Source of the DNA: Oscillospiraceae bacterium
GTDB taxonomy: Bacteria > Bacillota > Clostridia > Oscillospirales > Oscillospiraceae
DNA length: 12,272 bases
NCBI GenBank assembly: GCA_017378975.1
Contig: JAFNXT010000003.1
Coordinates: 1-12,272, forward strand
Direction of reading: 5' to 3'
Below the pieces are notes generated by a model. That model was not told where the DNA came from and made no database searches. It was given only the letters and a program-made list of their open reading frames with translations. Positions 27-11,201 of the stretch are shown piece after piece. Made by a program: the position numbers and the translations under genes. The stretch's first letter is position 1. Each line of letters starts with the position of its first letter.

Positions 27-341
27 ATGGAAGCTACACTGAACGTCACCCCCGAGCAGCTGCGGTCTACTGCCAGCACTTTCTCCGCTAAAGCCACTCA
101 GGTCAAGGCCCTCCACGACAGCATGCTGCAGAAGGTCAACGCCCTGAACAACACCTGGACCGGCGAGGCCGCCACCGCTTACGCCACCAAGTTCAATGCC
201 CTGAAGGGCGGTATGGAGACCATCTACTCCATGATCACGGAGCACGTCAAAGACCTGAACGCCATCTGCGATAAGTTCACGGAGGCCGAGCGGGTCTCCA
301 CCGCCGCCGCCAACGAGCTGCCCAACAGTACGCTGGGCTGA
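27..341 (+). CDS. WXG100 family (EsxA-like) T7SS protein
   Basis: This 104-aa protein has the length and all-helical character of WXG100/ESAT-6 proteins, the small secreted dimers that are substrates and co-substrates of type VII secretion. The signature W44-T45-G46 lies at the turn between two predicted amphipathic helices (about 8-42 and 47-90). Near the end of helix 2, F84-x3-E88 resembles the YxxxD/E secretion motif with Phe in place of Tyr. There is no signal peptide or membrane segment, as expected. The start is supported by an AGGAG site at 14-18, 8 nt before the ATG. It is the first complete gene of the window and heads the tight + strand cluster. A perfect hairpin lies between it and the next gene and may set their relative expression. 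The family call is secure; which proteins it partners is inferred. Confidence 0.93.
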   Translation: MEATLNVTPEQLRSTASTFSAKATQVKALHDSMLQKVNALNNTWTGEAATAYATKFNALKGGMETIYSMITEHVKDLNAICDKFTEAERVSTAAANELPNSTLG

Positions 342-404: not shown

Positions 405-1463
405 ATGCTGAAGGTAGACACCCTCTGCATGCAGACCCAAGAGCAACGGCTGCGCCAGATCGCACGGCAATTGGAGGATATCTCATCTCGTGTGGCAGAT
501 GTCCACCAGAAGCTCCGCTGGAGCTCCGGCATCAAGCCCCAGGTCCGCAGCAGTATCAACAGCCACCGCCAGCAAGTCGCAAACGGACGGACCAGTGCGA
601 TCCAGCTGGCCAACGCTCTGGATACCGCCGCCGCGATGTATATCCGCTGTGAAGAGGCCGCCGCTCCCGACAGTCAGGGGCCGGTCGGCAAGGCCAGTGG
701 CCCTCTATCAGGAAAGATCCCCGGCGCCTCGGAGCTGGGCACATCCATGAGCGGAGCCATCTCCGGTGGCAAGAGCTGGCGGGACTATCTGGGCACATTC
801 AACGATGTGTTCCCCTACGCCTATACCGCGTTCTCTACCTTTGGTCGATACGCCAAGATCGGTCGGGCGGTAGGCTTCGGAAAAGCCGTCTCCTGGTGGT
901 CCAGAGAGGTCATGGGACTGAAGCCCGGCCGTGCCTCCACCGCCAGCACCTTCGCCAAGCGGTTCCACAACAACCTGACCAACTCCACCTCCCCCTACAA
1001 CAAGATGTGGAAAGAGATCGGCAAGGACTTCACCGGCAAGAACGGTGTAGGCAAGGCCGTCGTATCCTACGGCACCGTCGCCATCACCGGCGTGCTGAAT
1101 TTCTTCGACAACAAGGATGAGCGGGACCAGTCCGGCGGCACCATATCCACGGAACGGATGGTCGCGGAGACTGTGACCGAGACCGCCGTGGATGTGGCGG
1201 TCGGCTACGGTGCCAGCATCGCTGTCGGTGCGGCGATCACCGCCCTCACCGGTGCGGTAGCTGCACCCGCCCTGGTGTTCGTCGCCTCCGGTGCTGCGAT
1301 CGCTGTGTGGAACAAGTATGACATGACGGAGAAGGTCTCCGACTGCGTGCTGGATGGAGTGGAGGCTGTGGCGGATACCGCCCAGAACGTCGCCAAGTCC
1401 GTGGGCAAGGGCGTGAAGAACGCAGGCAAAGCCGTAGGCAAATGGTTCAAAAAAATATTCTAA
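405..1463 (+). CDS. Candidate T7SS effector: N-terminal LXG/WXG-like domain, hydrophobic Gly/Ala-rich C-terminal region
   Basis: The 352-aa product opens with a predicted helical hairpin (about 1-86, starting MLKVDT and ending around Y79-I-R-C-E-E) that resembles the T7SS targeting domains of LXG-type proteins. The same pattern recurs at the C-terminus of the lipase encoded at 7865. A Gly/Ser/Pro linker (88-122) and a middle region (123-240) follow. Residues 261-301 are a long hydrophobic Gly/Ala-rich stretch, and the tail (329-352) is Lys-rich and ends K-W-F-K-K-I-F. Known LXG toxins with glycine-zipper segments, such as TelE and TspA, damage membranes, so a membrane-active effector is the leading idea, but no toxin family is recognised with certainty. 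The start is supported by GGAGG 7 nt before the ATG. The DUF4176-like gene follows after 9-15 nt. It could instead be a structural or scaffold substrate. Confidence 0.72.
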   Translation: MLKVDTLCMQTQEQRLRQIARQLEDISSRVADVHQKLRWSSGIKPQVRSSINSHRQQVANGRTSAIQLANALDTAAAMYIRCEEAAAPDSQGPVGKASGPLSGKIPGASELGTSMSGAISGGKSWRDYLGTFNDVFPYAYTAFSTFGRYAKIGRAVGFGKAVSWWSREVMGLKPGRASTASTFAKRFHNNLTNSTSPYNKMWKEIGKDFTGKNGVGKAVVSYGTVAITGVLNFFDNKDERDQSGGTISTERMVAETVTETAVDVAVGYGASIAVGAAITALTGAVAAPALVFVASGAAIAVWNKYDMTEKVSDCVLDGVEAVADTAQNVAKSVGKGVKNAGKAVGKWFKKIF

Positions 1464-1478
1464 CAGAGGTAGATGACA

Positions 1479-1751
1479 ATGACGATCAAAGACCTTCTCC
1501 CTGTCGGTTCCGTGGTCCTGCTGAAAGAGGGCCAGAAAAAACTGATGATCTGCGGTATCCTGCAGAGCGACGCTGCGAACCAGGGCGATGAGTACGACTA
1601 CATGGGCGTCCTTTACCCCGAAGGCCATATCGGAGAACAGTTCCAGTATCTGTTCTACCACGAGGATATCGACCAGATCATCTTCCGTGGCTATGAGGAC
1701 GAAGAACGGGACGCGTTCCTGACGAAGCTGGCAGCGCTCTACGAACAGTAA
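1479..1751 (+). CDS. DUF4176-like small protein
   Basis: This 90-aa acidic, soluble protein matches what I know of DUF4176: an early LPVGSVVLL strand, then KLMICGIL, a Y-D-Y-x-G-V-L-Y-P-E-G core and a hydrophobic F-x-Y-L-F-Y-H-E-D-I stretch. DUF4176 proteins are typically encoded beside WXG100 and LXG genes in Firmicutes T7SS loci. Their biochemical role is not established; an accessory or chaperone function for the adjacent substrate is an inference. I chose the ATG at 1479 because GAGG at 1466-1469 sits 9 nt upstream of it. The in-frame ATG at 1473, two residues earlier, would leave only 3 nt. It has no signal peptide or TM segment, so it is a poor candidate for immunity against a membrane-inserting toxin. 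Confidence 0.8.
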   Translation: MTIKDLLPVGSVVLLKEGQKKLMICGILQSDAANQGDEYDYMGVLYPEGHIGEQFQYLFYHEDIDQIIFRGYEDEERDAFLTKLAALYEQ

Positions 1752-1763
1752 GACGCATCGCTC

Positions 1764-1790
1764 CCTGCGGTGGGCTGGCCCCATCGCAGG
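1764..1790 (+). promoter_or_regulatory. Intergenic hairpin upstream of the PP2C gene
   Basis: CCTGCGGTGGG (1764-1774) pairs with CCCATCGCAGG (1780-1790), giving an 11-bp stem with one G-U pair and a CTGGC loop. It lies 10 nt before the AGGAGG site at 1801-1806 and has no T-tract. Its position matches the hairpins at 356-377 and 6799-6826. Confidence 0.55.
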
Positions 1791-1811
1791 AGAGATATAC
1801 AGGAGGCATCT

Positions 1812-2534
1812 ATGGACTGGGCAGCGATATCACATCCCGGCTCACGGGAAGTAAATGAGGATAGCACGGGCATCGCGGAAACGCAGGATGTCCGCTGCTT
1901 TGTCGTTGCGGACGGTTTGGGCGGACACGGCATGGGAGATACAGCCTCACAAACGGCTGTAGAAGCTTTCCGGAGCGTGTTCCAGGGATCTTCCGCTCCC
2001 CTGACACAGACCATGGAAGCCGCGTTCCTCCATGCTCAGGACCAGCTCCTGGCGGAGCAGGACCGGCTCCACGTCCCGGCGCAGATGAAGACCACAGCCG
2101 TTGCGCTGGCTGTGGACCAGACCCATCTCATCTGGGGCCACATCGGAGACAGCCGGCTGTATTCCTTCCGCTGGGGTCGTGTCCGACAATTGACCCGGGA
2201 TCACAGCGTCCCACAGATGCTGGTGATGACCAAACAGATCCGCCCACAGGCCATCCGCTTCCATCCGGACCGCAATATGTTGCTAAGGGTCCTGGGGCTG
2301 GCGGGGGAACCACCCAGATTCGAGCTGTCACCGCCGAAGAAGCGAAAAAAGAAGCAGGTCTTCCTGCTGTGTACCGATGGATTCTGGGAATGGATCACGG
2401 AAAAAGAGATGGCGCACTGTCTGCGGAGCGCTGCGTCAGCAGAAGATTGGCTGACACGAATGGAACAGATCATACTCAGCCGCGGAGAGGGTCTCCAGAT
2501 GGACAACCTATCCGCGATCGGTGTGTGGCTCTGA
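1812..2534 (+). CDS. PP2C-family Ser/Thr protein phosphatase
   Basis: This 240-aa protein is the usual size for a bacterial PPM/PP2C phosphatase, which removes phosphate from Ser/Thr using a binuclear metal centre. The motifs occur in order: R-E-V-N-E-D near residue 17, V-V-A-D-G-L-G-G-H-G (metal-binding Asp and Gly), W-G-H-I-G-D-S-R-L-Y, L-T-R-D-H-S, L-C-T-D-G-F-W-E near the C-terminal third, and a final D-N-L-S-A-I-G-V. All expected metal-binding acidic residues appear present. The ATG at 1812 is preceded by a consensus AGGAGG with 5-nt spacing; an upstream in-frame start would run through the hairpin and the ribosome site and is unlikely. It has no TM helix, so it is cytosolic. Two kinases encoded nearby are its natural opponents, and the FHA-like protein follows directly. 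The family assignment is firm; the target proteins are not known. Confidence 0.95.
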   Translation: MDWAAISHPGSREVNEDSTGIAETQDVRCFVVADGLGGHGMGDTASQTAVEAFRSVFQGSSAPLTQTMEAAFLHAQDQLLAEQDRLHVPAQMKTTAVALAVDQTHLIWGHIGDSRLYSFRWGRVRQLTRDHSVPQMLVMTKQIRPQAIRFHPDRNMLLRVLGLAGEPPRFELSPPKKRKKKQVFLLCTDGFWEWITEKEMAHCLRSAASAEDWLTRMEQIILSRGEGLQMDNLSAIGVWL

Positions 2535-2569: not shown

Positions 2570-3190
2570 ATGGATAAAGTAAAATGTGAGAATGGACACT
2601 TCTTCGACAGAGACAAATTCACCCATTGTCCGATCAAAGACTGTGGTGCACCGATGGCATTCCGTGTGCAGACGGATCTGTCACCATGGCAGCCCCCTGC
2701 CCCCGTCCCAGTCCCGGATCCGGAGCCGGTCCCTCCCGGGCCTGCCCGGCCTGTCAGGAACGACTGGATCTTCGATGACGATCCAGTCCCGGAGCCTGTG
2801 CCGGAGCCTGTACCGGAGCCTGTACCGGAGATCTCTTCGTTGCCGGTGGGCTGGTTGATCGGACTGACCGGAATGTATCACGGCCAGACCTTCCTCCTCA
2901 GCGAAGGCCAGACCCGCATCGGTCCCAGTGCGGAGCATGAGATCTCCTTATCGGAAGATGGCTCTTTTTCCGCAGATCCCTTCGCCATACTGACCTATAC
3001 CCCCGATACAAGAAAGACTTACATCCAAACCTGCTCCAACGAAAGAGCAGTCTGGCTCAATGACGAACCCTTCCTCTCCCAAACAGAGTTGCGTGCTTAT
3101 GACAAGCTGCAGATCGGACCGGAGCTTTTCCTGTTCCTCCCTCTGTGCGGCGCCCGGTTCGCCTGGGAAGACTACCAACGCCAGAAATAA
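2570..3190 (+). CDS. Zinc-finger protein with proline-rich linker and degenerate FHA-like domain
   Basis: The 206-aa protein has three parts. Residues 6-25 hold a small Cys/His cluster (C6, H10, C20, C25) of the type C-x2-G-H-x-F-D ... C-P, a probable zinc knuckle. Residues 41-90 are a proline-rich spacer that includes P-E-P-V repeats. Residues 95-195 have the strand pattern of an FHA domain: G-x-Y-H-G-Q-T-F-L-L, R-I-G-P-S, a Ser-containing segment, a W-L-N-D turn, and D-K-L-Q-I-G with a closing hydrophobic strand. FHA domains bind phosphothreonine, but the usual Arg after I-G is Pro here and the S-x-x-H pair is not preserved, so phosphopeptide binding is doubtful. It is cytosolic. It lies between the phosphatase and the kinase, its stop codon adjoins the kinase ribosome site (TAAGGAGG), and it probably acts as an adaptor. 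An AAAGGG site lies 7 nt before the ATG. Confidence 0.8.
   Translation: MDKVKCENGHFFDRDKFTHCPIKDCGAPMAFRVQTDLSPWQPPAPVPVPDPEPVPPGPARPVRNDWIFDDDPVPEPVPEPVPEPVPEISSLPVGWLIGLTGMYHGQTFLLSEGQTRIGPSAEHEISLSEDGSFSADPFAILTYTPDTRKTYIQTCSNERAVWLNDEPFLSQTELRAYDKLQIGPELFLFLPLCGARFAWEDYQRQK
2789..2830 (+). repeat. 12-bp in-frame tandem repeat encoding Pro-Glu-Pro-Val
   Basis: CCGGAGCCTGTG at 2789-2800 is followed by two CCGGAGCCTGTA units (2801-2812 and 2813-2824) and a half unit, CCGGAG. It encodes the rigid P-E-P-V spacer before the FHA-like domain. Near-identical units suggest that length changes by slippage. Confidence 0.85.
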
Positions 3191-6688: not shown

Positions 6689-6700
6689 TCGACTGGTCCT

Positions 6701-6784
6701 GCGCCAATGCTGTAGATCCCGTTTCGGGTATCGACCCGATCCTGGCGCCAGCCTCACTTTCCAGTTCGTTCACATCATCTACAG
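6701..6784 (+). other. Structured 162-bp gap between the kinase and the lipase module
   Basis: Within the gap at 6689-6850, GCGCCA (6701-6706) pairs with TGGCGC (6743-6748) around an inner CGGGT/ACCCG hairpin (6725-6738). CTGTAGAT (6710-6717) has an exact inverted copy, ATCTACAG, at 6777-6784. These pairings overlap and could be alternative folds. There is no T-run, so it is not an ordinary terminator, and no known riboswitch class is recognised. It may mark a transcript boundary. Confidence 0.4.
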
Positions 6785-6797
6785 TTGAGCCCAAAAT
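6769..6797 (+). promoter_or_regulatory. Weak candidate promoter for the lipase module
   Basis: TTCACA (6769-6774; 5/6 match to TTGACA) is separated by 17 bp from CAAAAT (6792-6797; 4/6 match to TATAAT). Transcription would start near the base of the following hairpin. The match is modest; read-through from the kinase gene is an equal possibility. Confidence 0.3.
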
Positions 6798-6798
6798 G

Positions 6799-6826
6799 CC
6801 CCATGGTCGGGACCCCGGCCATGGGG
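6799..6826 (+). promoter_or_regulatory. Strong hairpin upstream of the TTG-started WXG100 gene
   Basis: CCCCATGG (6799-6806) pairs with CCATGGGG (6819-6826), extended inward by one T-G pair and three G/C pairs, giving a 12-bp stem with a tetraloop. It lies 10 nt before AGGAGG (6837-6842). It has no T-tract. It is the third such hairpin before a ribosome site in this locus. Confidence 0.6.
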
Positions 6827-6850
6827 TCGCCAAGACAGGAGGTTGACCAA

Positions 6851-7144
6851 TTGATCAAATTCAGTTACAAAGATGCTCTGGATCAGGCCAGGGAGCTGGA
6901 TCAGGTCTCTGAAGACCTGTACCGGTTGACCGACCGGATCCTGAAGCCGAAGCTGGAAGACCTGGGTATGACCTGGAAAGGGGACAGTGCCCAGATCTTC
7001 CTAAGAAAAACCGAAGAAGTCCTCAAGGATATGCGGGGCACGGCGGACACCATCGCCAGGATCTCCAACGGATTGGAGGGCACGGCCAAAACCATCAAAG
7101 CCGCAGAAGACGCTGCGAAACAGTTGGTCGCAAAGAAGTCATGA
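6851..7144 (+). CDS. WXG100-like small helical protein, likely partner of the lipase
   Basis: The 97-aa product is all-helical with W42-K43-G44 between helix 1 (about 6-38) and helix 2 (about 45-92), so it belongs to the WXG100/ESAT-6 type. The start is a TTG at 6851, because a consensus AGGAGG (6837-6842) lies 8 nt upstream. An earlier in-frame TTG at 6785 would force translation through the 6799-6826 hairpin and has no ribosome site. Its stop overlaps the lipoprotein start (ATGA), so the two are translationally coupled. In the S. aureus TslA system two small helical proteins (TlaA1 and TlaA2) bind the C-terminal domain of the lipase for secretion. This gene sits in the equivalent position, but only one such gene is seen here. 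It lacks a clear YxxxD/E motif at its end. Alternatively it is an independent EsxB-like substrate. Confidence 0.85.
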   Translation: MIKFSYKDALDQARELDQVSEDLYRLTDRILKPKLEDLGMTWKGDSAQIFLRKTEEVLKDMRGTADTIARISNGLEGTAKTIKAAEDAAKQLVAKKS

Positions 7145-7851
7145 TCAAAAAAATCATCGTGTCATCGATCATCATCTGTATGATCGTGATGTTGGGAGGC
7201 TGTATCAACATGGATGAGCTGTTCAAAAAATTCGAAGGACCGATCACCGACCAGCGCGAGATCTTCCTTGCCCATATGGAAGAAAAGTATGACGAAGAGT
7301 TCCTTCCGATCTCCTACGCCGTAGCGGGCATCTTGACTCCGGAGGAATTCCGCTGCTACGTCAAGGGTACCGATCCGGAACGTGACTTCGTACGGGTCTC
7401 CAGAGTTGAGCTGGATGGTCAGACCGTGATCGTGGACGACTATTTCGGTCATCTGATCCGGCAGGACTATCAGGATCGGGTCCAGGAGATTGCCACACAG
7501 GCAGCCGGTCTGTCCAAGGCTTACCTCGGCAGTTATCTGCTGTCCTATTTCGACCCCGCTCTCACCGGTGAACACACCCTGGACGATGCCATCGAAATGG
7601 GACAAAACATCAGCGCCGCCAAATATATCTTCTTCGAGGTCGCCCCCGGAGAAGAGAGCCGATTCCAGCAGATTTGTGACCAGATCTTCGAAGAACTGGA
7701 CCGCCAGGATCTTCCCGGCATGGTGAAGGTGCTGGGCCTGTCCCAGGGGCAGTTGGAGACGATCACCCAACAGGACTATCTGGAGCAGATACCCAGCATG
7801 GTCAAACCTGACGGCAAGATCGTCCTGATGATGGGCGACCGGATGATTTGA
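7141..7851 (+). CDS. Predicted lipoprotein, candidate immunity protein for the lipase
   Basis: The 236-aa product starts with a classic lipoprotein signal: basic MIKK, a hydrophobic core (5-17) and a lipobox L18-G-G-C21, so Cys21 should be lipidated and the rest lie on the outer face of the membrane. The mature part has M-E-E-K-Y-D-E-E-F followed by alternating short strands, a layout often seen in small Firmicutes lipoproteins. I do not recognise a named domain. Translation begins at an ATG that overlaps the preceding stop by 4 nt, and the lipase gene follows after 13 nt. In S. aureus, lipoprotein TilA protects cells from the secreted lipase TslA; the genomic position here suggests the same job. 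This is an inference from context and topology, not from sequence similarity that I could test. Confidence 0.8.
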   Translation: MIKKIIVSSIIICMIVMLGGCINMDELFKKFEGPITDQREIFLAHMEEKYDEEFLPISYAVAGILTPEEFRCYVKGTDPERDFVRVSRVELDGQTVIVDDYFGHLIRQDYQDRVQEIATQAAGLSKAYLGSYLLSYFDPALTGEHTLDDAIEMGQNISAAKYIFFEVAPGEESRFQQICDQIFEELDRQDLPGMVKVLGLSQGQLETITQQDYLEQIPSMVKPDGKIVLMMGDRMI

Positions 7852-7864
7852 AGGAGGCTCAGAC

Positions 7865-9130
7865 ATGGCAGAACTTACCGAGAAGCAGATGGTACTGCTC
7901 AACTCCTTCATATATCTGGATGTGGATCTCCCTGCAGGTGCCGACCTCGGAGACCTTGCCAACAGTCTGCGTGATACCGGTCTGAAGGGCATGGAGATCG
8001 GCGGCGGTATGGACAAGAAAGAAGCTCTGGAGATGCTGGAGCAAATCGCTACGGACGAAACTCTGGCGAACCTGAAGATCTCCGATTCCGTCAATGGTGA
8101 GATCCGTGCCGCCTGCTTCGTGGATAGCCAAAACGACGCTGTGATCACCTACCGTGGCACCGGTCCGCTGTATGTGGCCTGGGACGACAACGCTCAGGGC
8201 GGCTATCTGGCAGACACGGATATGCAGAAGCAGGCGCTGGCCTTCGCCGAGAAATGCGCTGTACAATACGATGACATCACCGTCACCGGCCACTCCAAAG
8301 GCGGTAACATGGCCCAGTATGTCACCATTCGGATGGGCAATGAGATCGACCGATGCGTCTCCTTCGACGGACAGGGCTTCAGTGGAGAATTCCAGGAGAA
8401 ATACTCCGCCGAGATCCTTGCCAACCGCCACAAGATCCGCAGCGTCTGCGCCTATAACGATTTCGTCAATGGTGCGCTCCCTTCGATCGCCAGTGAGACC
8501 GTCTATCTGGACAACACCTACAACGGGATCGGAAAGCCGGGCCATTATATCTATAACCTGTATAAGGACCCTGACAATGTGATGGTCAACGGTGAATACA
8601 TCACCAGCAGAGAGCAACACTTCATCATCAAACTGCTCTTTCTCTGGGCAAACGATCTCAACACCAAGCTGGACATAGTTCCTCCTGAGATCCAATTCCT
8701 GGTCTACAGCATCATCGGAATGGGGATGGGCTCCGCATTGGGAGATCCTATCAGTAATTCCCAGAAGTTCACCGAACTGCTGAAAAACGCTAAGGACCTC
8801 CTGGCTGAGCAGGCCCAGCAGATCATCTGCGGCCCCAATCCCGGTCCCGCCAGCATGACCGTAGATACCGGCGCCATGCGTGGTATGTGCACGACGCTGT
8901 CCGATGCCGCCTGGCAGGTGGAGCAGCTACAGACCCGCATCCGGAACATCCGTAAGAAGATGGCCAGCAATATCATCAGCGACGGCATGATCATGGGCAT
9001 CCCCGTTCAGACCGTACTGCTGCAGCTGGACCGGGAGAGCGAGAAGCTGGACCGGCTGTCGAAGGCCCTGTCCCGTTGCGCCGATCAGTACGATGCCGCT
9101 GAGGAACGTATCACCGGTCTGGCGACCTGA
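7865..9130 (+). CDS. Lipase-like alpha/beta hydrolase with C-terminal T7SS targeting domain (TslA-like)
   Basis: The 421-aa protein has an N-terminal alpha/beta-hydrolase domain of the Mbeg1/DUF2974 lipase-like type. V-I-T-Y-R-G-T (93-99) matches the first core strand, and V-T-G-H-S144-K-G-G holds the nucleophile Ser. Asp199 in Y-N-D-F and His227 in P-G-H-Y are candidates for the rest of the triad. There is no signal peptide. Residues about 331-421 form a helical hairpin that starts M-T-V-D-T and ends D-Q-Y-D-A-A-E-E-R-I, resembling an LXG/WXG100 targeting domain. The order, enzyme first and targeting domain last, is that of the T7SS phospholipase toxin TslA. AGGAGG lies 7 nt before the ATG. 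The gene ends the module ahead of a strong terminator. Substrate and toxicity are inferred; a housekeeping cytosolic lipase is less likely given the tail. Confidence 0.85.
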   Translation: MAELTEKQMVLLNSFIYLDVDLPAGADLGDLANSLRDTGLKGMEIGGGMDKKEALEMLEQIATDETLANLKISDSVNGEIRAACFVDSQNDAVITYRGTGPLYVAWDDNAQGGYLADTDMQKQALAFAEKCAVQYDDITVTGHSKGGNMAQYVTIRMGNEIDRCVSFDGQGFSGEFQEKYSAEILANRHKIRSVCAYNDFVNGALPSIASETVYLDNTYNGIGKPGHYIYNLYKDPDNVMVNGEYITSREQHFIIKLLFLWANDLNTKLDIVPPEIQFLVYSIIGMGMGSALGDPISNSQKFTELLKNAKDLLAEQAQQIICGPNPGPASMTVDTGAMRGMCTTLSDAAWQVEQLQTRIRNIRKKMASNIISDGMIMGIPVQTVLLQLDRESEKLDRLSKALSRCADQYDAAEERITGLAT

Positions 9131-9146
9131 TCCTCACCAATACCAA

Positions 9147-9179
9147 AAAAGCTCATCTCCCCGATGGAGATGAGCTTTT
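9147..9179 (+). terminator. Rho-independent terminator of the lipase module
   Basis: AAAAGCTCATCTCC (9147-9160) and GGAGATGAGCTTTT (9166-9179) form a perfect 14-bp stem with a 5-nt loop. The 3' arm ends in TTTT and continues with T/A-rich sequence. The A-run on the 5' side could also let it act on transcripts from the other strand. Confidence 0.93.
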
Positions 9180-9275: not shown

Positions 9276-11201
9276 ATGCAATGCAGAAACTGCTTCCACG
9301 AGTATGATGAGAGCTTCGGGATGTGCCCCGAATGTGGCTATGTCGAAGGAGAATCCGGGGAAGCCTATTGTCTGGCGACCGGCACCGTATTACAAGACCG
9401 CTATGTCATCGGTCAATGTCTCGGTGTTGGTGGCTTCGGCATCACCTATAAAGTATTCGATACCGAGATGCGCGTCGTCAAGGCTGTGAAAGAATATTTC
9501 CCCAGCGGTCTGGTGGCCCGTGCAAAGGATAACTCCAATGTGCTGCTGGTGGCAAAAAAACGGGAAGAGGAGTATCTGATCGGAAAACAACGTTTCCTGA
9601 ACGAAGCCCAGAACATGAACAAATTCCGGAGCCACCGCAACATCATCAATGTGTTCAGTCACTTCGAAGCCAATGATACCGCCTATATCGTGATGGAGTA
9701 TCTGGACGGCATCACCTTGAGCCAGCGGATCCAGGAGGGGCCCATCCCCCAGCTCGAGTGTGTGGAGATCGCCACCAGGATATGCCATGCTCTAACTGCG
9801 ATCCACAAGGAAGGGGTCCTCCATCGGGATGTGAGCCCCGACAACATCATGCTCTGCAAAGACAACACGGTGAAGCTGTTCGACTTCGGTGCAGCCCGGT
9901 TGTCTGCCAAGTCCTCAGATGACTCCCACATGACCGTGATCGTCAAACCCGGCTTCGCTCCCCCGGAACAATACGAGAATGTCAACCAGCAGGATGCCCG
10001 GACCGATATCTATGCGCTGGGTGCCACCATGTACTACGCTCTGACCGGTATAAAACCCATGGAATCCACGGACCGGAAGGTGAAGGATTCCATGCCCACT
10101 CCCCAAATGCTGGACGCCCAGATCCCCACCTATTTGAACAACGCGATCCTCCGCGCCATGTCGCTGGATCCTCAGTCCCGCTTCGCAAGCGCAGAAAAGC
10201 TCTGTGAGGTCCTGCAGGAAGAGATCGTGGTGACACCGCCGCGTCCGCCGAGACCCAAATGGGCAAGCATCCTCATCGCCTCCGTATTGGTCGTTACCCT
10301 GATCGTCGCCGTGATAGCCGTCTGGTCCATCAAGCAGGAAGCCTCGAAAGTCCCCGATGGCAGTATCCGATTGTGGTATATGTCCAGCGGCGACACCGAG
10401 AAGGATCTTGCCACCCAAAAGGCATGGGACGACCTGATCACACAGTTCACCCAGAAGCACCCCAACGTTTCCGTCACGGTGTCTCCCATCCTCTCCAGCG
10501 AATATAACCAGCGTTTGGAAGAAGCCCGGAAGAATGGGACCATGCCCCATATCTATGAATCCACGCTATTGCCCACCTCCATGCTGGACGATGCGATGAC
10601 GTTGGACAGTTCGCTACTGTCCCCGAAGGAACTGTATCTGGATGCGCTGATCGTGAACGAAAACCAGTACCCGACCGGTCTGCTGATCCCCACGATCTAC
10701 ATCCATAAGTCCGTCACCATCGCTCCGCAGACCAACACCCTGGAGGCGCTGAAAGCCGCCTGCAAAGACGGCGGACTGCTGACCAACGCCTCGTCCGCCA
10801 GTCTGTATCAGTCCATCTACCAAAAAGACCTCATGGACCACATCAGCAACGATGCTCTTGATAAGTTCCTCGCCGGCGAATGTCAGATCTATCTGGGGAC
10901 CACCGCTGACTATCTTGAGATCCAAAAGGGGCTGGCAGGCATGTATACCGTATCCTTCCCCGATACCGACTCCGCCACCTACAGCTTTGGACGTCTCTGG
11001 AGCTGTCTTGACAGCGACAAAAACACCGATAAGATCTCTTGTGCACTCTTGGACTACATGAATTCCGACCTTGGTCAGGATCTCCTGAATATCCGGAACT
11101 TCCCCTCCAGCGGATGCGTGCCCGCCTCAAAAAACGGCATCGACGCTTATGTGGATAGCTACACTGAACTCTCCGGACTGAAAGATTATCTGGAAAACTG
11201 A
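9276..11201 (+). CDS. Membrane Ser/Thr protein kinase with extracellular solute-binding-protein-like domain
   Basis: The 641-aa protein begins with a zinc ribbon (C3, C6, C17, C20). A Hanks-type kinase domain follows (about 41-315): G50-V-G-G-F-G loop, K72 in A-V-K-E-Y-F-P, helix-C E110, H183-R-D185 with N190, and D203-F-G. A Pro/Arg linker leads to one TM helix (about 330-351). The outer part (363-640) reads like a family 1 extracellular solute-binding protein: an I-R-L-W-Y-M-S-S-G first strand, a helix with D-D-L-I-T-Q-F-T-Q-K-H-P, and a C-terminal F-P-S-S-G-C-V-P-A-S-K segment where such proteins list their last residues. It is thus a predicted one-protein receptor that phosphorylates targets on binding a sugar, peptide or other ligand. 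AGGAG lies 10 nt before the ATG, and it has its own promoter and terminator. It is a paralogue of the kinase at 3206 in its cytosolic half only. Confidence 0.93.
   Translation: MQCRNCFHEYDESFGMCPECGYVEGESGEAYCLATGTVLQDRYVIGQCLGVGGFGITYKVFDTEMRVVKAVKEYFPSGLVARAKDNSNVLLVAKKREEEYLIGKQRFLNEAQNMNKFRSHRNIINVFSHFEANDTAYIVMEYLDGITLSQRIQEGPIPQLECVEIATRICHALTAIHKEGVLHRDVSPDNIMLCKDNTVKLFDFGAARLSAKSSDDSHMTVIVKPGFAPPEQYENVNQQDARTDIYALGATMYYALTGIKPMESTDRKVKDSMPTPQMLDAQIPTYLNNAILRAMSLDPQSRFASAEKLCEVLQEEIVVTPPRPPRPKWASILIASVLVVTLIVAVIAVWSIKQEASKVPDGSIRLWYMSSGDTEKDLATQKAWDDLITQFTQKHPNVSVTVSPILSSEYNQRLEEARKNGTMPHIYESTLLPTSMLDDAMTLDSSLLSPKELYLDALIVNENQYPTGLLIPTIYIHKSVTIAPQTNTLEALKAACKDGGLLTNASSASLYQSIYQKDLMDHISNDALDKFLAGECQIYLGTTADYLEIQKGLAGMYTVSFPDTDSATYSFGRLWSCLDSDKNTDKISCALLDYMNSDLGQDLLNIRNFPSSGCVPASKNGIDAYVDSYTELSGLKDYLEN

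Follow-up and report, generated by a model that had tools for sequence, protein, structure and literature searches.

The stretch of DNA analysed here, referred to as the window, is the entire contig C60 (12,272 bases) of a 2.02-Mb genome that is 75.7% complete in 359 contigs, and its base composition agrees with that of the other contigs of the same genome. At positions 6851..9130 it carries a module of three open reading frames, encoding a WXG100-like protein of 97 amino acids, a lipoprotein of 236 amino acids and a lipase of 421 amino acids (Table 1). ATGA is common to the first two frames, and 13 bases lie between the lipoprotein and lipase genes. Positions, ATGA coupling, LGGC lipobox and the WXG100-like gene are all as described in an earlier note made from the letters of this DNA. 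The same note had a single terminator closing the module. A hairpin of 14 pairs is indeed found there, but terminator-like sites are no commoner in the scan than in shuffled sequences (2 versus 2.0), so that stem length is its sole support.

The WXG100 gene at the start of the window is probably part of the same T7SS locus as the module, and the 352-aa protein encoded after it is probably a second T7SS cargo. The hydrophobic stretch of the latter is rich in Gly and Ala; the gene next to it encodes a DUF4176 protein, and this pair (405-1751) is also present in locus L077. DUF4176 is the family of the Ltc chaperones of LXG toxins (PMC13355648). The module is preceded by a long intergenic stretch (6690-6850) without a match in Rfam, in which two inverted repeats can be seen by eye, near CGGGTATCGACCCG and CCCCATGG...CCATGGGG. 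A second kinase gene (9276-11201) follows the terminator-like hairpin. Its product, a Ser/Thr kinase, contains a single hydrophobic segment and weakly matches, below the cut-off, the solute-binding protein family PF01547, an unusual, sensor-like make-up.

Table 1. Features of the window (contig C60) and of contig C125 of the same genome
Feature	Position	Strand	Evidence
WXG100 protein	27..341	+	PF06013 63 bits, TIGR03930 70 bits, both above curated cut-offs
352-aa protein, tail/WXG100-like N terminus, hydrophobic segments at 264-301	405..1463	+	Tail profile E 1.6e-9; hydropathy
DUF4176 protein	1473..1751	+	PF13780 92 bits
PP2C phosphatase	1770..2534	+	PF13672 61 bits; L016 and L077 have PP2C as well
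FHA-like protein, weak match	2570..3190	+	PF16697 24 bits, below cut-off 33
Ser/Thr kinase with PASTA and Big_2 domains, one hydrophobic segment	3206..6688	+	Domain search, hydropathy
97-aa WXG100-like protein (WKG)	6851..7144	+	PF06013 24.9 bits, TIGR03930 32 bits; motif reading
236-aa lipoprotein, lipobox LGGC, Cys21	7141..7851	+	Family of 18; upstream of lipases elsewhere; fusions; model
Lipase, N-terminal part, residues 1-324, PF11187/DUF2974	7865..8836	+	Pfam, conserved triad, model
Lipase, C-terminal WXG100-like helical hairpin, residues 325-421, Y409-x-x-x-E413	8837..9130	+	Model, profiles
Terminator-like hairpin, 14 pairs	9147..9179	.	Site scan
DUF6382-FHA protein	C125 8217-9149		Counterpart of T7SSe TseJ; similar protein in T7SSf

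The lipase matches PF11187/DUF2974 (E 8e-16), and residues 4-234 of the predicted structure adopt the class-3 lipase fold. Its catalytic triad (Ser144, Asp199, His227) is invariant in the 98 homologs of alignment A3, which were taken from 120 listed lipases out of 528 found; the 22 left out include three fusions, partial proteins and others not chosen. Residues 330-421 are modelled as an Esx-like hairpin that superimposes over 92 residues on EsxA (3zbh) at 1.7 A, and in profile-profile comparison the lipase tails match the WXG100 seeds at 96%, compared with 1.8% for the reversed control. The N-terminal hydrolase and the C-terminal LXG/WXG-like helical domain proposed earlier are thus both borne out, and the absence of a helical hairpin, which would have spoken against the proposal, was not observed. 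The lipase shows two features of a reverse-domain T7SS lipase, an N-terminal lipase fold with G-x-S-x-G and a C-terminal WXG100/LXG-like hairpin.

Near its end, the lipase tail carries a strongly conserved motif. In the columns of Y409 and E413, 95 of the 98 aligned homologs (from the 120 listed of 528 matches) have [YF]xxx[DE], compared with 7 of 98 for the next best pair of columns in the tail; WxG is present in 1 of these 98 tails. In 111 of the 120 lipases listed of the 528 found, a [YF]xxx[DE] motif begins between 5 and 30 residues before the C terminus. When lipases were examined in their loci, 16 of 21 tail-bearing ones had the pattern near the end and five had LxxxE; 2 of 10 other locus lipases also contain it.

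The 97-aa protein is read from a TTG start at 6851 with AGGAGG upstream. We name it WXG100-like since its scores fall below the curated WXG100 cut-offs (27.3 bits for PF06013, 44.9 bits for TIGR03930) but its length, WxG and position fit. It contains WKG and lacks [YF]xxx[DE]; where other WXG100 proteins examined here have [YF]xxxE, it has IKAAE, which may be a weak motif. Only one near-identical protein was found, so that the link between this protein and the lipase rests on the window and on gene order in relatives. The 97-aa protein is probably the co-export partner of the lipase. Up to three WXG100-like genes lie upstream of the lipoprotein gene in relatives, some with another short helical gene; the single partner noted earlier, as opposed to two, therefore describes the window but is no firm trait.

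The lipoprotein begins with MIKKIIVSSIIICMIVMLGGC. Seventeen further proteins in the database are related to it, at 46-54% identity, and in the resulting alignment of 18 rows (A1) the lipobox Cys is kept in all 14 rows in which the N terminus is present, including that of the window; the other four start later and were not counted. For five relatives, equal longest-contig sizes (21214, 4940, 6559, 27122 and 2589) suggest that they lie on the same contigs as lipase matches. The predicted structure (pLDDT 83) gave no clear structural relative among the families listed in a structure search, and no Pfam match to DUF576, the family of TilA, was obtained at E up to 1. Among 60 close relatives the lipoprotein was found in one, namely the genome of the window itself. 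The module is rare and patchy in its distribution.

The genome encodes a T7SS on another contig. C125 holds an EssC-type ATPase gene above the cut-off, with an FHA domain in the product, together with genes for YukD, a DUF6382-FHA protein (Table 1), a LytTR protein and four proteins above the WXG100 cut-off. Garrett, Higginson and Palmer (2024, PMC11217815) give DUF6382-FHA, YukD and a phosphatase as genes of both T7SSe and T7SSf, with a kinase in addition in T7SSe. Of the T7SSe components, TseC with FHA, TseB (YukD) and WXG100 proteins are present on C125; candidate counterparts of the TseD kinase and the TseF phosphatase are in the window, on a different contig from EssC. EssB/YukC (PF10140), which marks T7SSb, was detected in none of eight genomes searched, including this 75.7%-complete one, with a positive B. 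subtilis control. By its gene content the system looks T7SSe/f-like, unlike that of S. aureus. Judged by eye, the WXG100 gene at the end of C125 and that at the start of the window are of two types which succeed each other in this order in Lachnospiraceae loci. The ends of the two contigs do not overlap, so we infer their adjacency from gene order.

The earlier note pointed out that the module sits directly after a phospho-signalling cassette, which the S. aureus system is not known to have. This association is not new. According to PMC11217815, non-b T7SS loci commonly contain kinases, phosphatases and FHA proteins. L016 comprises EssC, WXG100, lipoprotein, lipase, DUF6382-FHA, PP2C and kinase. 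The nearest full layout, L077 from the same family, comprises EssC, LytTR, YukD, WXG100 genes, VWA-FHA, PP2C, a protein like the 352-aa one, DUF4176, lipoprotein and lipase. From these layouts and that source, the cassette is T7SS equipment and no oddity of the module.

Homologs that regularly occur away from T7SS genes would, by the earlier note, have refuted its proposal, and this was put to the test in 31 lipase genomes. Besides that of the window, these comprise 12 named genomes identified by a peptide-pattern scan, 7 of the 300 genomes searched in the same family (E up to 1e-10) and 11 of the 345 searched in the order (E up to 1e-15), settings that capture the stronger relatives only. A tail was called when the tail profile, whose own members may include some of the 31 lipases, matched the last 130 residues at E 0.001. 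It was detected in 21 of 31 lipases. Reversed C termini passed the same threshold in 5 of 31 (best 0.00038), and G091 (0.00022) and G373 (0.00011), close to this background, are only weakly supported as tail-bearing. All 21 tail-bearing genomes have an EssC-type ATPase, with at least 435 bits against TIGR03928 and 18 above the curated cut-off. Within the stretches retrieved, it is encoded together with the lipase in 17 of 21 (L006, L008-L013, L016, L068-L072, L074, L076-L078) and off the lipase stretch in the remaining four (window, L005, L007, L075). By contrast, EssC was found in none of six genomes with short tailless lipases (361-464 aa), whose best TIGR03928 matches of 108-124 bits are at the level of housekeeping FtsK. 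The other four genomes (G619, G620, G159, G579) hold EssC without a detected lipase tail, so that EssC does not require the tail; G619 and G620 have RTX lipases, G159 a 731-aa protein beside EssC and G579 a broken frame. In the order sample, where two candidates per genome were scored, EssC was above the cut-off in 22 of 345 genomes overall versus all eight whose lipase bears a tail (hypergeometric 7e-11; at the genus level, 5/5 versus 16/162, 5e-6); these eight include the genome of the window and related species, so that the statistics serve as guides.

A lipoprotein-type gene lies directly upstream of the lipase gene in 13 of the 21 tail-bearing genomes, from several lineages, but was not seen beside the lipase in the other eight, nor beside any of the six short tailless lipases. 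Seven of these eight have a VWA-FHA type gene there instead (Pfam finds FHA in four of four scanned and VWA in three). Twelve of the 13 upstream proteins are assigned to the lipoprotein family, either through HMM or profile-profile matches, which some reach only when grouped, or, for G377 and G414, through near identity to such a protein; for that of G279, which has a signal peptide by eye, homology to the family was not detected. A lipobox was found by script or plain reading in 9 of the 13 and by eye in two more (G279, G212), and no signal peptide was found in the proteins of G610 and G091. Seven Lachnospiraceae loci without an adjoining lipoprotein (L006, L008-L013) have EssC, YukD-like, WXG100 and VWA-FHA type genes followed by the lipase gene, the YukD-like match being documented for L006, L008 and L010. 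In these loci the reverse lipase occupies a seemingly fixed place, by eye, next to argininosuccinate synthase-like genes.

Two further arrangements link the lipoprotein to the lipase domain. The lipases of L014 (1,381+ aa; region 7684-13897) and L015 (1,983 aa; region 2411-13069) are DUF2974 proteins with RTX repeats (PF00353) and no tail. Directly upstream of each lies the gene of a membrane-anchored protein related to the lipoprotein (hhalign 68% for a group of three; 1.2% reversed). A C39 ABC exporter and HlyD are encoded beside the RTX lipase of L015, a type I version of the same lipase-lipoprotein pair; L014 has an additional short lipase copy of 167 aa. Moreover, three database proteins (P0026-P0028) combine the lipoprotein domain and the lipase in one chain (E 5e-14 to 7e-18). 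These fusions are Cys/His-rich, lack the tail and have no signal peptide evident by eye. Since it is kept with RTX lipases and fused to lipase, the lipoprotein goes with the lipase domain and not with the export part, which is what would be expected of an immunity protein. On this evidence, the lipoprotein is probably the immunity protein against the lipase.

The founder of the reverse-domain T7SS lipase class is TslA (PMC10730906), of the TslA-TilA-TlaA1-TlaA2 system of S. aureus T7SSb, which likewise comprises an N-terminal lipase with a C-terminal WXG/LXG-like hairpin, an adjoining lipoprotein and a small helical partner. The Phyre2 templates reported for TslA, 3ZBH and 3O0D (PMC10730906), are also among the structures matched by our lipase model. 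The gene order differs, being partner-lipoprotein-lipase here and lipoprotein-lipase-partners in S. aureus (PMC10730906). The YxxxE motif is located inside the lipase tail here, while for TlaA1 and TlaA2 no clear motif of this kind is reported at the termini (Garrett et al. 2023, PMC10730906). Further differences are that EssB was not found and that, by reading, the turn in the lipase hairpin of the window has no G-x-L. As the lipase belongs to DUF2974 and the lipoprotein, unlike TilA, has no DUF576 match, the earlier view of the module as a divergent version of TslA is best taken as an analogy.

Reverse lipases are also reported at T7SSe (Neobacillus) and T7SSg (Paenibacillus) loci, likewise non-b loci with kinases, phosphatases and FHA proteins; these lipases, named in PMC11217815, may be of the same family as the present one. 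DUF2974 effectors are listed for X-T4SS and T6SS (PMC6536674, PMC11854122), with the same hydrolase family but different exporters and targeting parts, and lipoprotein immunity is described for envelope-acting X-Tfes (PMC6536674). A paper on T7SS effectors of S. suis only cites TslA in the text available (PMC12558993). The literature searched, part of it in incomplete text, yielded no DUF2974 lipase as T7SS cargo; within the same scope, four things are new: the order of the genes, the family of the lipoprotein, the motif near the end of the lipase, and the exchange of export parts.

The arrangement of the motifs invites a comparison with LXG toxin-Lap complexes, in which toxin and small helical partner likewise form a composite export signal, the bipartite signal consisting of WxG in one partner and a YxxxD/E arm in the other (PMC9600955, PMC13355648). 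In the LXG case the LxG turn is in the toxin and the FxxxD arm in Lap1; here the YxxxE arm is in the toxin tail and WxG in the partner from the window. The nearest upstream WXG100-like gene encodes WxG without [YF]xxx[DE] in 7 of 14 lipoprotein-type loci (window, L068-L072, L075; four genera), and the split was not seen in the other seven (L016, L073, L074, L076-L079). We tentatively propose, as an idea with slightly less than even chances, that the halves of the export signal have changed places compared with LXG toxins: the lipase hairpin would be EsxB-like with the YxxxD/E arm, the small partner EsxA-like with WxG, and the lipoprotein an antidote that moves with the lipase domain when this passes from T7SS to type I (RTX) export. 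If true, the enzyme would be an EsxB with a lipase fused to its front, which would explain why a C-terminal targeting domain works.

Taken as a whole, the module is likely to encode a cargo lipase of the cell's own T7SSe/f-like system together with its export partner and a protective lipoprotein. The lipase would be made in the cytoplasm, where its C-terminal hairpin, Esx-like in fold and homologous to WXG100 proteins, would pair with the 97-aa partner. The pair would then be recognized by the EssC-type ATPase, with which tail-bearing lipases co-occur, and be exported. Outside the cell, the class-3 lipase domain with its conserved Ser144-Asp199-His227 would attack membrane lipids, the most likely substrate being phospholipids of competing bacteria. 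The genetically linked lipoprotein would be anchored to the outside of the producer's membrane, bind the lipase domain there and so protect the producer and its kin.

Lipase-specific foldases exist, and the lipoprotein might instead be a folding factor or chaperone of the lipase, as its place beside the lipase domain and the single-chain fusions would also allow. T7SS cargo presumably folds before it is exported, so that a foldase outside the cell would not be needed; moreover, 8 of 21 tail-bearing and all six short tailless lipases do without the lipoprotein. We regard a chaperone role as improbable. The lipase could also be a T7SS-exported accessory enzyme of membrane or surface remodelling rather than a toxin, tethered to the producer's surface by the lipoprotein. 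This reading, which we hold to be unlikely though deserving of some weight, would suit the loci L006 and L008-L013, where the lipase follows EssC, YukD-like, WXG100 and VWA-FHA genes without an adjoining lipoprotein, and the single lipase match per genome in the family and order samples (L014 with two copies). It fits less well with a lipoprotein that accompanies the lipase even when another export part is present, and antibacterial lipases with lipoprotein immunity have precedents in T7SS and X-T4SS (PMC10730906, PMC6536674).

A lipase directed at an animal host instead of at bacteria would recall the namesake of the family, Mbeg1 (DUF2974, Gemella sanguinis), which came from a screen for NF-kappaB-inducing clones (PMC6867899). 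The paired lipoprotein suggests instead a need for self-protection, and lists of antibacterial X-T4SS effectors and of predicted T6SS effectors include DUF2974 too (PMC6536674, PMC11854122); we give a host target only a very small chance.

As far as the literature searched goes, reverse-domain T7SS cargo has one worked-out example, in whose partners no clear export motif is reported (Garrett et al. 2023). In the present family, with the module as a likely T7SS cargo lipase, the cargo itself contains a candidate motif that is nearly invariant, and a WxG partner is encoded beside it, so that recognition would be testable by point changes. The analysis further indicates that uncultured Clostridia-type bacteria have a lipase-lipoprotein pair, and that the same lipase domain is carried by different export parts.
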